NCBI RefSeq assembly: GCF_003330765.1
Contig: NZ_CP024904.1
Location: forward strand, 62,001 to 126,000
DNA length: 64,000 bases
DNA from: Burkholderia pyrrocinia
GTDB lineage: Bacteria; Pseudomonadota; Gammaproteobacteria; Burkholderiales; Burkholderiaceae
Direction of reading: 5' to 3'
Part shown: positions 4,768 to 13,174 of the stretch, one piece after another
How the letters are laid out: every line of letters starts with the position of its first letter
Position numbering within the stretch: the stretch's first letter is position 1
The notes under the pieces: generated by a model
What the model was told of the DNA's origin: nothing
Database searches by the model: none
The model's input: only the letters and a program-made list of their open reading frames with translations
Made by a program: the position numbers and the translations under genes

Positions 4768-4781
4768 GCAAATCGCATGCC
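4768..4781 (-). promoter_or_regulatory. Sigma-54 promoter of the dehydrogenase operon
   Basis: On the minus strand the sequence reads TGGCATGCGATTTGC. The -24 GG is at 4781-4780, the -12 GC at 4769-4768, with exactly ten bases between, matching TGGCAYG-N4-TTGC. Transcription should start near 4756, leaving a leader of about 80 bases before the ATG at 4678. Confidence 0.8.
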
Positions 4782-4870
4782 ATTGCGGCGCGCGCCGCGC
4801 GCTGCAAGGCCGAGCGGCGGATGACGCGCGATCGGGCCGAGCTATGCGACAGGTCGCGGGTGATCCGCAT

Positions 4871-4908
4871 GTGTTGCGTTCGGGAACATCCGCGGCCGCG
4901 GTGTTGCG
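4871..4908 (-). promoter_or_regulatory. Paired GCAACAC boxes, probable activator sites for the dehydrogenase
   Basis: On the minus strand CGCAACACC (4908-4900) and CGCAACAC (4878-4871) are 30 bases apart and about 100 bases upstream of the sigma-54 promoter. The same GCAACA core, in the same orientation toward the promoter, occurs upstream of tonB and pqqA. Probable enhancer sites for the sigma-54 activator at 10964-12958. The remainder of the 586-base gap between the two divergent operons shows no other gene. Confidence 0.6.
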
Positions 4909-5105
4909 AAACATGACAGTGCCGGGCGCGCAGCACGCGTCGCGAAGAGGGCGGGGCGAACGACGACCTGCGGGTGATGAATCGCGCACGTGCTTGTCAC
5001 GCTGCGTGCGCGGCGGTCGACGTGCGGACGATGCCATGACCGATCCGCGCAGCCGTGACGCGCACGATGGCGAACCGTCGCGTCGCTGATCCGGATTGAC
5101 ACAGG

Positions 5106-5134
5106 TGCAACAGGCGTTGGCACGAACTGCAACA
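5106..5134 (+). promoter_or_regulatory. Paired TGCAACAG boxes, probable activator sites for tonB operon
   Basis: TGCAACAG occurs at 5106 and again at 5128, exactly 22 bases apart (two helical turns), about 80 bases upstream of the plus-strand sigma-54 promoter. Core and spacing match those upstream of pqqA. Confidence 0.6.
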
Positions 5135-5209
5135 GATGCGCGACGGCACGCGGCGCTGCTCCGGTGCGTGGCGGCGTCGGCCCGTTGTCGGTCGGGCGAT
5201 GCGCGCATC

Positions 5210-5223
5210 GGCATGCTTCTTGC
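5210..5223 (+). promoter_or_regulatory. Sigma-54 promoter of the tonB-exbBD-receptor operon
   Basis: CGGCATGCTTCTTGCC: -24 GG at 5210-5211 and -12 GC at 5222-5223 with ten bases between. Expected start near 5235, about 30 bases before the tonB ATG at 5265. Confidence 0.75.
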
Positions 5224-5264
5224 CGTTCGGAACGGGAAACGATTCCGCGCAGCGAGATCCCGCC

Positions 5265-10643: not shown

Positions 10644-10894
10644 GTCGGCTGTGGTGCGGGGAAAAGGAGGCGGTTGGTCCGCGCGGGATCCGTGCGGTGA
10701 CGAAGCCAGAATCGCGCCAGCGATGAGGATCGGGATTCGTCCGGGTGGGCGGCGGGCGGCCGAATCGCGATACTGCATCGACCGTGCTCGCGTAGCGCCA
10801 TCCGGCGCGCGCGGCGTTGTTCGTCTTGCATTTTCCTTTCGGCTCGGGGCGTGCGGCGGTGCAGGGATGCCGGTTCGAACATCGATCGCAGTAT

Positions 10895-10908
10895 GGCCCG
10901 ATGTTTGC
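10895..10908 (+). promoter_or_regulatory. Sigma-54 promoter of the activator gene
   Basis: TGGCCCGATGTTTGCT: -24 GG at 10895-10896, -12 GC at 10907-10908, ten bases between. It lies 55 bases before the activator ATG at 10964 and implies positive autoregulation. I see no GCAACA box in the 320-base gap 10644-10963, which holds nothing else recognisable. Confidence 0.7.
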
Positions 10909-10963
10909 TTGCATCAAGGACAAAGAGTCCGGCGACCGACCGGCAGGATCCCCGGAGGAGACA

Positions 10964-12958
10964 ATGCGCGATGACGTTCACCCGACGGCCAACGCACGGG
11001 CCATGCCTGCGCCCGGCTGGCCGACGCCCACGATCCAGAAATCCCATGAGCGGTCCGAGACGTTCGGCCTGCAGGCGACCGCACGCCCCGACTACGACCT
11101 GATCTCGGGTGCCGCGCTGGCGCTCAAGCGCGAGCAGAATCGCGTGCTGTGCGTGCACGCGATGCCCGTGATGGAAACGCTGCACGAGCAGATCGTCAAT
11201 ACGCAGAGCATGATCGTGCTGACCAATGCGGAAGGCCTGATCCTGCATTCGATCGGCGACGACGACTTCCTGCGGCGCGCGGAACGGGTCGCGCTGCGCC
11301 CCGGTGCGAACTGGGCGGAGAGCCGGCAGGGCACCAACGCAATCGGCACGGCGCTCGCCGAGCTGTGTCCGATGGTCGTGCATGGCGACCAGCACTTTCT
11401 GGCCGCCAACCATTTCCTGACCTGCTCGAGCGTGCCGATTCTCGATCCGTACGGCGACGCGATCGGCGTGCTCGACGTGACGGGCGACCACCGCAGCTTT
11501 CACCAGCACACGATGGCGCTCGCGAAGATGTCGGTGCAGATGATCGAGAACCACCTGTTCACCACGACCTTCCAGGAGACGCTGCAGGTGTCGTTCCATG
11601 GCCGCCCCGAATTCCTCGGGACATTGATGGAGGGCATCGTCGCGTTCACCGCCGACGGCCGTTTCCTGTCGGCCAACCGCAGCGCGCAGTTCCAGCTGGG
11701 GATGCCGCTTGCCGCGCTGCGCGCGCATACGCTGGCATCGCTGTTCGACGTCACCAGCGCGCAGCTGATCGACCGGATGCGCGCGAGCACCGAGCCGCAC
11801 GTGGCGTTGAACCTCGGCACCGGCGCGGTGGTGTGCGCGCGCGTGCAGTTCCGGCGCGCGTTGCGGGCCGAGGGCAGCCGTCCGGCGGAAGTGCACGGCG
11901 GCGCGGCCGCGGCCGCGCGGCCGGCCGCCGCGCAGAACGCGGCGAGCCTGTCGCGGCTCAGCTATCTCGACACCGGCGACCCGCAGGTGGCGGCGGTGAT
12001 CGCGAAGGTGCGCAAGGTCATCGGCAAGGACATTCCGGTGCTGATCACCGGTGAGACGGGCACCGGCAAGGAACTGCTCGCGCAGGCGATCCACAACGAC
12101 TCGCCGCGCCGCGACGGGCCGTTCGTCGCGGTCAACTGCGCATCGATTCCGGAGACGCTGATCGAATCCGAGCTGTTCGGCTATGAGGAGGGCGCGTTTA
12201 CCGGCGCACGCCGCAAGGGCGCGACCGGCAAGCTGCTGCAGGCGAACGGCGGCACGCTGTTCCTCGACGAGATCGGCGACATGCCGTATCCGCTGCAGGT
12301 GCGGTTGCTGCGCGTGCTGCAGGAGCGGATCGTCAATCCGCTGGGTTCGACGAAGGCGATCGGCGTCGATATCGCGATCATCTGCGCGACGCACCGCGGC
12401 CTGCGCGACATGATCGCCCAGAACCGCTTCCGCGAGGATCTCTACTACCGGCTCAACGGCCTCGTCGTGCGCCTGCCGCCGCTGCGCGACCGCACCGATC
12501 TCGCGGTCGTCGTGCAGAAGATGCTGCAGCGCGAGACGCTGTCGGGCCCCGGACGGCGGCCGCTGAGCGTCGCGCCCGACGTGATGGCGCTGTTCGAGCG
12601 CTGCGCGTGGCCCGGCAACTTCCGGCAACTGGCGAACCTGCTGCGAACCGCCGCCGCGATGGTCGACGACGATTGCGAGATCCGCTGCGAACATCTGCCT
12701 GATGATTTCTTCGACGACATCCGGCGCGACTGCGCGCAGGTGACGCAGGACGCATGCGTGCCGCGGCCCGCGATCGATGTGCCCGCGCCGGGCGACGCGC
12801 GGCTGCAGGACGTGGCCGCGTCCGCGATCGCGGCCGCGCTGGCCCGCCACGGCGGCAACGTATCGGCCGCGGCGCGTGCGCTCGGCGTGTCGCGCAACAC
12901 GATCTACCGGAAGATGCCGGCCGCCGGATCCGAGCCGGTCGAGCCGGACGAACACTGA
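10964..12958 (+). CDS. Sigma-54-dependent activator, AcoR-like
   Basis: Enhancer-binding protein of 664 residues. Residues about 75-200 are a GAF-like sensor domain of AcoR-type regulators, about 215-300 look PAS-like, and the AAA+ domain follows: Walker A GETGTGKE 363-370, the sigma-54 contact loop GAFTGA 410-415 intact, Walker B LFLDEIGD 432-439, and an arginine-finger region later. A Fis-type helix-turn-helix ends the protein (NVSAAARALGVSRNTIYRKM). Start at 10964 is preceded by GGAGGAG. Four sigma-54 promoters nearby (dehydrogenase, tonB, itself, pqqA) and repeated GCAACA boxes make it the likely regulator of the whole PQQ module. The signal sensed is unknown; an alcohol or aldehyde is plausible because AcoR-type sensors respond to small metabolites. 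Confidence 0.93.
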   Translation: MRDDVHPTANARAMPAPGWPTPTIQKSHERSETFGLQATARPDYDLISGAALALKREQNRVLCVHAMPVMETLHEQIVNTQSMIVLTNAEGLILHSIGDDDFLRRAERVALRPGANWAESRQGTNAIGTALAELCPMVVHGDQHFLAANHFLTCSSVPILDPYGDAIGVLDVTGDHRSFHQHTMALAKMSVQMIENHLFTTTFQETLQVSFHGRPEFLGTLMEGIVAFTADGRFLSANRSAQFQLGMPLAALRAHTLASLFDVTSAQLIDRMRASTEPHVALNLGTGAVVCARVQFRRALRAEGSRPAEVHGGAAAAARPAAAQNAASLSRLSYLDTGDPQVAAVIAKVRKVIGKDIPVLITGETGTGKELLAQAIHNDSPRRDGPFVAVNCASIPETLIESELFGYEEGAFTGARRKGATGKLLQANGGTLFLDEIGDMPYPLQVRLLRVLQERIVNPLGSTKAIGVDIAIICATHRGLRDMIAQNRFREDLYYRLNGLVVRLPPLRDRTDLAVVVQKMLQRETLSGPGRRPLSVAPDVMALFERCAWPGNFRQLANLLRTAAAMVDDDCEIRCEHLPDDFFDDIRRDCAQVTQDACVPRPAIDVPAPGDARLQDVAASAIAAALARHGGNVSAAARALGVSRNTIYRKMPAAGSEPVEPDEH

Positions 12959-12972
12959 CACGCCGATGTCGA

Positions 12973-13024
12973 TGTAACACCGGTGTACCAGGTTGCAACA
13001 CCCGGTGCTCAAGGATGCAACACC
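12973..13024 (+). promoter_or_regulatory. Three TGYAACACC boxes upstream of pqqA
   Basis: TGTAACACC at 12973, TGCAACACC at 12994 and TGCAACACC at 13016, spaced 21 and 22 bases so all face the same side of the helix. They begin 15 bases after the activator stop and lie about 140-190 bases upstream of the pqqA sigma-54 promoter. The first box continues into the palindrome ACACCGGTGT. Probable enhancer array. Confidence 0.65.
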
Positions 13025-13160
13025 TGCCGCGCCGCGCGCGCATGCCACGAGCCGTCGTCCGACGGCTTCTGAAAACATTTCGTCTGGTGATCGTAATCAT
13101 TCCGGCGTCATGACCGCGCGGCGGACGCCGTCGGCCGTCGCGCGAGTGGAATGCAGCCCC

Positions 13161-13174
13161 GGCACGCTCCTTGC
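13161..13174 (+). promoter_or_regulatory. Sigma-54 promoter of pqqABCDE
   Basis: CCGGCACGCTCCTTGCTG: -24 GG at 13161-13162, -12 GC at 13173-13174, ten bases between, close to the consensus GGCACG-N4-TTGC. Expected start near 13186, 55 bases before pqqA. Confidence 0.8.

Follow-up and report, generated by a model that had tools for sequence, protein, structure and literature searches.

A predicted sigma-54 regulon for lanthanide-type alcohol oxidation, PQQ synthesis, uptake, and acetate activation in Burkholderia and its relatives

The question raised by this locus is whether genes for alcohol oxidation, for the cofactor pyrroloquinoline quinone (PQQ), and for outer-membrane uptake answer together to one sigma-54 activator encoded among them. 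The stretch analyzed, hereafter the window, comprises 64,000 nucleotides of the Burkholderia pyrrocinia contig NZ_CP024904.1 (G000:C3:62001-126000), in a genome of 8.0 Mb and three contigs. The nearest named relatives of the locus were from Burkholderia (a B. multivorans plasmid record, 86%; the receptor, 92% to B. diffusa), which places it in Burkholderia sensu stricto. The analysis indicated that one activator very probably drives four sigma-54 units in Burkholderia and its relatives, namely those for alcohol oxidation, PQQ synthesis, uptake, and the acetyl-CoA synthetase gene acs. As judged from sequence, a single regulon made up of the dehydrogenase, tonB/receptor, pqq, and acs units is well supported.

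Candidate promoters were scored with a simple -24/-12 weight matrix applied to GG-N10-GC sites. The initial annotation of this DNA had named four such sites, before the dehydrogenase operon, tonB, the activator gene, and pqqA, and its coordinates and orientations proved exact (Table 1). Each site has GG and GC 10 bases apart within flanks resembling TGGCAYG-N4-TTGCW, lies upstream of a gene, and is conserved. Among the 1,285 GG-N10-GC sites of the window the four rank 2, 3, 4, and 8, with the tonB site sharing the tied ranks 7-8. Eight sites in the window score at least 13, versus means of 1.4 and 2.2 in order-1 and order-2 Markov sequences (15 of each), and four score at least 14, versus 0.7-0.9 expected. 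The best-scoring site other than these promoters (1243, plus strand) falls within the gene of a high potential iron-sulfur protein (HiPIP), on the opposite strand to it. A further -24/-12-like site of 13.7 bits (25000-25015, plus strand) lies among genes on the right-hand side of the pqq operon whose translations suggest polysaccharide synthesis.

Conservation was assessed in two samples. The genus sample included 65 genomes, and 36 loci were taken from 35 genomes besides the window's own (one with two copies), their genes being located by tblastn. The family sample included 299 genomes, of which 118, spanning 11 of 25 genera, gave a strong activator match; outside the genus there were 91 matching genomes, and 36 of them supplied the 38 loci analyzed. 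A promoter was called in a relative at 12.5 bits or higher and at most 320 bases from the start, and absent or non-scorable starts were excluded from each count. Within the genus the promoter was kept at every scorable start of the dehydrogenase (33/33), pqqA (36/36), the activator (36/36), and tonB (5/5). In other genera it was kept at 22/22 dehydrogenase starts, 23/26 pqqA starts (the three missed score 12.0), 25/38 activator starts, and 4/8 receptor starts. For comparison, 1,080 stretches of 400 bases were drawn at random from these loci, with true sites included, and 8% of them reached 13 bits. The receptor gene had a promoter at 20 of 28 starts in the genus. Six of the eight misses were the loci with exbB homologues before the receptor (L081, L082, L083, L086, L088, and L090), and the other two had sites that scored lower, at 9.8 and 11.4 bits; where a genus locus lacked exbB homologues, 20 of 22 receptor starts had their own promoter of at least 12.5 bits, and 19 of these also had the upstream site described below.

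These counts bear on the possibility that the sites are chance matches in a GC-rich genome and the operons run on ordinary promoters. The sheer number of GG-N10-GC sites in the window would favor it, since one or two scoring at least 13 are expected in 64 kb by chance, so that it is position and conservation that exclude chance. The invariable retention of the sites within the genus, amid variable upstream DNA, refutes this explanation in the main and leaves it highly improbable.

A second shared element was found farther upstream. A 17-base motif, TGT-N11-ACA ending in GCAACA, occurs twice before the dehydrogenase, twice before tonB, and two to three times before pqqA, where an additional TGTAACA stands at 12973, upstream of the sites in Table 1. 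The copies within a promoter are spaced 21 to 32 bases apart, and in alignments of the upstream DNA they form conserved islands amid otherwise diverged sequence. The six best matches to the site model in the window were these sites, at 16.2 to 20.1 bits, a result with some circularity, since the model had been trained in part on window sequences. In relatives, a site was called if it reached 12 bits and lay upstream of the promoter by no more than 260 bases. By this measure it accompanied all 33 dehydrogenase, 36 pqqA, and five tonB promoters in the genus, compared with 29 of 720 random 260-base stretches, while in other genera it accompanied 21 of 22 dehydrogenase and 21 of 23 pqqA promoters. 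Two other patterns were discarded. The pair pattern TGTTRC-N13-26-TGTTRC gave 25 matches genome-wide versus 37 in the control, which is chance level, though four fell in the locus; an earlier single-site pattern (12 matches, control 5) had a spacing three bases too long and missed the window's own sites. In the open-licence PMC literature searched, PMC8899819 and PMC8784404 included, no characterized AcoR binding site was found to set beside TGT-N11-ACA.

The initial annotation had raised the prospect of further operons with the same promoter pattern, and a genome scan by -24/-12 pattern match supplied acs, which adjoins the window and has the same architecture. The pattern YGGCAYG-N4-TTGC gave 83 matches in the genome versus 36 for the reversed pattern. 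The best of the 77 genome -24/-12 sites scored for upstream sites was C3:61174-61160, 0.8 kb left of the window and 48 bases before the gene of a 664-residue acetate-CoA ligase (974 bits versus a curated family cut-off of 725). Upstream of it stands TGTTGTCGCCTGCAACA, followed at 22 bases by another site that is weaker. Because acs was not in the training of the site model, its top rank is, within the genus, an independent prediction. Fourteen of the 20 relatives fetched from the genus had a visible acs start, and each of these kept both the -24/-12 promoter and the upstream site. Its membership makes metabolic sense, as alcohol would be oxidized through aldehyde to acetate, and acetate converted to acetyl-CoA. 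With acs, the predicted regulon is larger than first claimed; it also extends past the genus and is of the lanthanide type.

The activator has the intact GAFTGA loop that had been claimed for it (ELFGYEEGAFTGARR). Among 25 curated families listed for it, none was over its own cut-off, and the term AcoR-type therefore refers to architecture only. The remark that it is the only sigma-54 activator in view was accurate for the window, where it is the sole Sigma54_activat match, but it makes a weak argument alone, as the genome has 21 strong and four weak matches. Distribution was more informative. Taking an identity of at least 84% to define the orthologue, the activator was found in 36 of the 65 genus genomes, the window's own included. 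Activator and dehydrogenase were both present in 35 genomes and both absent in 28, so that 63 of 65 were concordant. The single genome with the dehydrogenase only (G057) is an 82% complete draft, and the single genome with the activator only (G026) still has a dehydrogenase piece in its locus L108. The 28 genomes with neither include G050, which has a 253-residue fragment of 77% identity lying at the end of a contig, and G014, with a 73% activator homologue; the latter (locus L117), which has neither dehydrogenase nor site, was left out of the counts.

Several observations weigh against a single regulon under this activator. Outside the genus, 13 of the 38 activator loci have no -24/-12 site of 12.5 bits before the activator gene, and 14 of the 38 have no dehydrogenase match, although several of these 14 hold distant activators (58-66%) that may be other regulators. 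An acs start beside the operon was lacking in six of the 20 fetched genus relatives, and outside the genus a clear acs was found in two of 38 loci: in L136 a site of 17.1 bits precedes the gene by 54 bases, and in L153 there is none. In six genus loci that keep the remainder of the cluster, the receptor was missing (L084, L096, L116) or a remnant (L085, L087, L089), two loci cut by contig ends having been excluded; uptake is thus not essential. The site-model matches at the training promoters are partly circular, as the model was trained on the window and its relatives, and only acs is independent. The upstream site accompanied the activator's own promoter in one of 36 genus loci and in six of 25 elsewhere, and the genome encodes a further 20 strong sigma-54 activators, of which one is 52% identical to this one. 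Ralstonia solanacearum belongs to the same bacterial family as Burkholderia. Its growth on ethanol needs rpoN1, which speaks for the proposed regulon, and is credited to AcoR and exaC, the latter a predicted AcoR target other than those proposed for Burkholderia, which speaks against it (PMC4676750); the main text of that paper does not contain "pqq".

The abundance of activators, the missing site at the activator's own promoter, and the loci without dehydrogenase would also fit real sigma-54 promoters of which some or all are driven by another activator, such as the 52% paralogue on C2 or NtrC, the neighboring activator having its targets elsewhere. This is distinctly unlikely, because it is the neighboring activator that tracks the dehydrogenase across the genus. 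In contrast, a paralogue of 51-54% was listed in 64 of the 65 genus genomes irrespective of the dehydrogenase, and outside the genus the dehydrogenase lay within the activator locus in 24 of 38 cases. The 52% paralogue is encoded at G000:C2:660080-661957, with a purine-permease-type gene nearby.

The single regulon first proposed accordingly holds for the dehydrogenase, tonB/receptor, and pqq operons, which share conserved promoters, a common upstream site, and co-occurrence, while the activator gene does not appear to be on the same route. It has a sigma-54 promoter but probably a separate input, either another activator or this activator bound elsewhere than nearby. Divergent from the activator is a prolyl-aminopeptidase-like hydrolase gene preceded by a weak -24/-12-like site of 9.6 bits (10704-10719, minus strand; TGGCGCGATTCTGGCT). 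This site was similar in only part of the relatives and, being weak and uneven, was excluded from the regulon.

Under the single-activator reading, the GAF-AAA+-Fis protein would bind the TGT-N11-ACA pairs, which lie upstream of the -24/-12 promoters by some 90 to 190 bases, its GAF domain sensing an alcohol or an aldehyde made from it, and would then drive sigma-54 RNA polymerase at four predicted RpoN-dependent units: dehydrogenase-cytochrome-HiPIP-sigma factor; tonB-exbBD-receptor, or the receptor alone; pqqABCDE; and acs. A periplasmic lanthanide-type quinoprotein, PQQ, electron carriers, and an outer-membrane uptake system would be made jointly, and the acs product would turn acetate from alcohol oxidation into acetyl-CoA. 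Such a one-component sigma-54 regulon in Burkholderiaceae would mean that substrate induction brings cofactor, uptake, and acetate use along.

Table 1. Promoters, putative upstream activator sites, and genes of the locus (positions in the window).
Feature	Position	Strand	Remarks
Sigma-54 promoter, dehydrogenase operon	4767..4782	-	TGGCATGCGATTTGCG; matrix 15.4; -12 GC to start codon ~90 bases
Sigma-54 promoter, tonB	5209..5224	+	CGGCATGCTTCTTGCC; matrix 13.0; -12 GC to start codon ~42 bases
Sigma-54 promoter, activator gene	10894..10909	+	TGGCCCGATGTTTGCT; matrix 15.2; -12 GC to start ~56 bases
Sigma-54 promoter, pqqA	13160..13175	+	CGGCACGCTCCTTGCT; matrix 16.1; -12 GC to start codon ~67 bases
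Putative upstream activator site 1, dehydrogenase promoter	4902..4918	-	TGTCATGTTTCGCAACA; conserved block
Putative upstream activator site 2, dehydrogenase promoter	4872..4888	-	TGTTCCCGAACGCAACA; conserved block
Putative upstream activator site 1, tonB promoter	5096..5112	+	TTGACACAGGTGCAACA
Putative upstream activator site 2, tonB promoter	5118..5134	+	TGGCACGAACTGCAACA
Putative upstream activator site, pqqA promoter	12984..13000	+	TGTACCAGGTTGCAACA
Putative upstream activator site, pqqA promoter	13006..13022	+	TGCTCAAGGATGCAACA
RpoD-type sigma-70 paralogue, 616 aa	1..1215	-	fourth gene of the operon; continues ~0.6 kb left to C3:61365 (L269:2866-4716)
HiPIP, electron carrier	1232..1549	-	PF01355; GTG start assumed
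Weakly MoxJ/XoxJ-like binding-protein part fused to class I cytochrome c	1623..2873	-	MoxJ part well short of its cut-off
PQQ-dependent alcohol dehydrogenase, lanthanide-type (WDYDG)	2951..4678	-	best PDB match 6zcw/6zcv
tonB	5265..6134	+	
exbB/tolQ-type proton channel	6145..6864	+	
exbD/tolR-type protein	6861..7289	+	
TonB-dependent receptor	7372..9672	+	
Sigma-54 activator: GAF, AAA+ with GAFTGA, Fis-type helix-turn-helix	10964..12958	+	AcoR-like architecture
pqqABCDE	13241..16428	+	PQQ genes covered: pqqA to pqqE

The dehydrogenase scored 560 bits against the methanol/ethanol quinoprotein family (cut-off 480). Its two closest solved structures are listed as quinoprotein ethanol dehydrogenase and are presumably PedH, the lanthanide enzyme of Pseudomonas putida. 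The lanthanide-type Asp, two residues past the catalytic Asp, was found in all 58 fetched loci with a dehydrogenase match, the window excluded (55 WDYDG and three WDFDG). At the metal position 6zcw has WDFDG and 1flg has WDFSG, with Ser; 1FLG is ExaA, and calcium-type PedE likewise has Ser where lanthanide-dependent PedH has Asp (PMC5487730). The enzyme is thus predicted to be of the lanthanide type, and its metal would be a lanthanide. An identity as XoxF methanol dehydrogenase was rejected, as the best match, 6zcw, reached 421 bits and the best XoxF-named match 317.

The electron carriers mentioned in the initial annotation were borne out as a cytochrome c and a HiPIP. The cytochrome is fused to a weakly MoxJ-like part; in methylotrophs MoxJ/XoxJ and cytochrome c are encoded by separate genes. 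The sigma factor gene follows 16 bases past the HiPIP gene. Its product has all sigma-70 regions, 1.1 to 4, and falls below two NCBIfam RpoD cut-offs (437 of 555 and 275 of 354 bits), which marks it as a paralogue and not the primary RpoD. Among 20 fetched relatives it was full or nearly full length in 14, in pieces in four, and absent in two, and it was seen in three of the 38 loci outside the genus. With identities of 53-80%, it evolves faster than acs, whose full-length copies show 92-97%. A bolder interpretation would be a sigma-54 cascade in which an alcohol-responsive activator turns on lanthanide alcohol oxidation with its own outer-membrane lanthanide receptor and, from within the same operon, an RpoD-like sigma factor by which a further set of genes would be redirected while the cell grows on alcohols. 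This is speculative and rather unlikely; if true, the receptor would become a candidate for the outer-membrane lanthanide receptor that is still missing in non-methylotrophs.

The cargo of the receptor may alternatively be PQQ, imported as a means of cofactor retention in the manner of PqqU, rather than a lanthanide chelate. In a BLASTP comparison the receptor shared 29% identity with E. coli PqqU over 300 of 766 residues, plus a stretch of 159 residues at 24%, and in phmmer searches with PqqU, relatives of the receptor scored up to 104 bits, while for the receptor itself no match was reported. In a published survey, pqqU adjoins the pqq operon in four Burkholderiales genomes, and R536 of PqqU is called semiconserved (PMC12124388); taken in full-length numbering, this residue aligns with Ala in the receptor. 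When the PDB was searched with the receptor, PhuR and one chance match were the only entries at E <= 1. The strain has PQQ genes itself. PQQ import is possible but doubtful. By its co-regulation the receptor is a concrete candidate for outer-membrane uptake of lanthanides, or of PQQ, in non-methylotrophs.

Among the papers listed by searches of the open-licence PMC literature, no description of this regulon was found in titles or abstract openings. An insect-associated island combines PQQ genes, a PQQ alcohol dehydrogenase, and a sigma-54 regulator, and was reported as not found in the BCC&P clade (PMC9088363). A methanol reading with a link to that island was rejected on this ground, and also because no formylmethanofuran dehydrogenase A was over its cut-off in the window's genome; it was present in five of 12 chosen relatives, always on a contig other than the activator's. 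An account of the RpoN regulon of P. phymatum (PMC5979394) yielded one formylmethanofuran gene and no match to alcohol, ethanol, or TonB in the text searched, and was not used.

The closest known likeness in enzyme type is the ped cluster of P. putida, whose PedH is a lanthanide-type quinoprotein alcohol dehydrogenase with the same Asp (PMC5487730) and requires lanthanides (PMC12997753). There the lanthanide-type enzyme is switched according to metal by the two-component system PedS2-PedR2, with AgmR as a local regulator (PMC12997753, PMC6115532), and a table in PMC12997753 lists CbrB as a sigma-54-dependent response regulator. P. putida has no LutH homologue, and its outer-membrane lanthanide route is stated to be unresolved (PMC12997753). 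Unlike ped, the window's genome has no second member of the methanol/ethanol quinoprotein family over the cut-off (one weak match, 37 bits), and hence lacks a calcium/lanthanide switch pair like that of ped. The Burkholderia cluster instead has a one-component sigma-54 activator and includes acs and a TonB uptake operon. In regulation, the likeness is to AcoR-type activators and BmoR, an alcohol-responsive sigma-54 activator (PMC8899819, PMC8784404), with which this activator shares the GAF, AAA+, and Fis-type helix-turn-helix domains and paired upstream sites at looping distance. In contrast to those systems, the predicted targets in Burkholderia are a quinoprotein, PQQ synthesis, and outer-membrane uptake.

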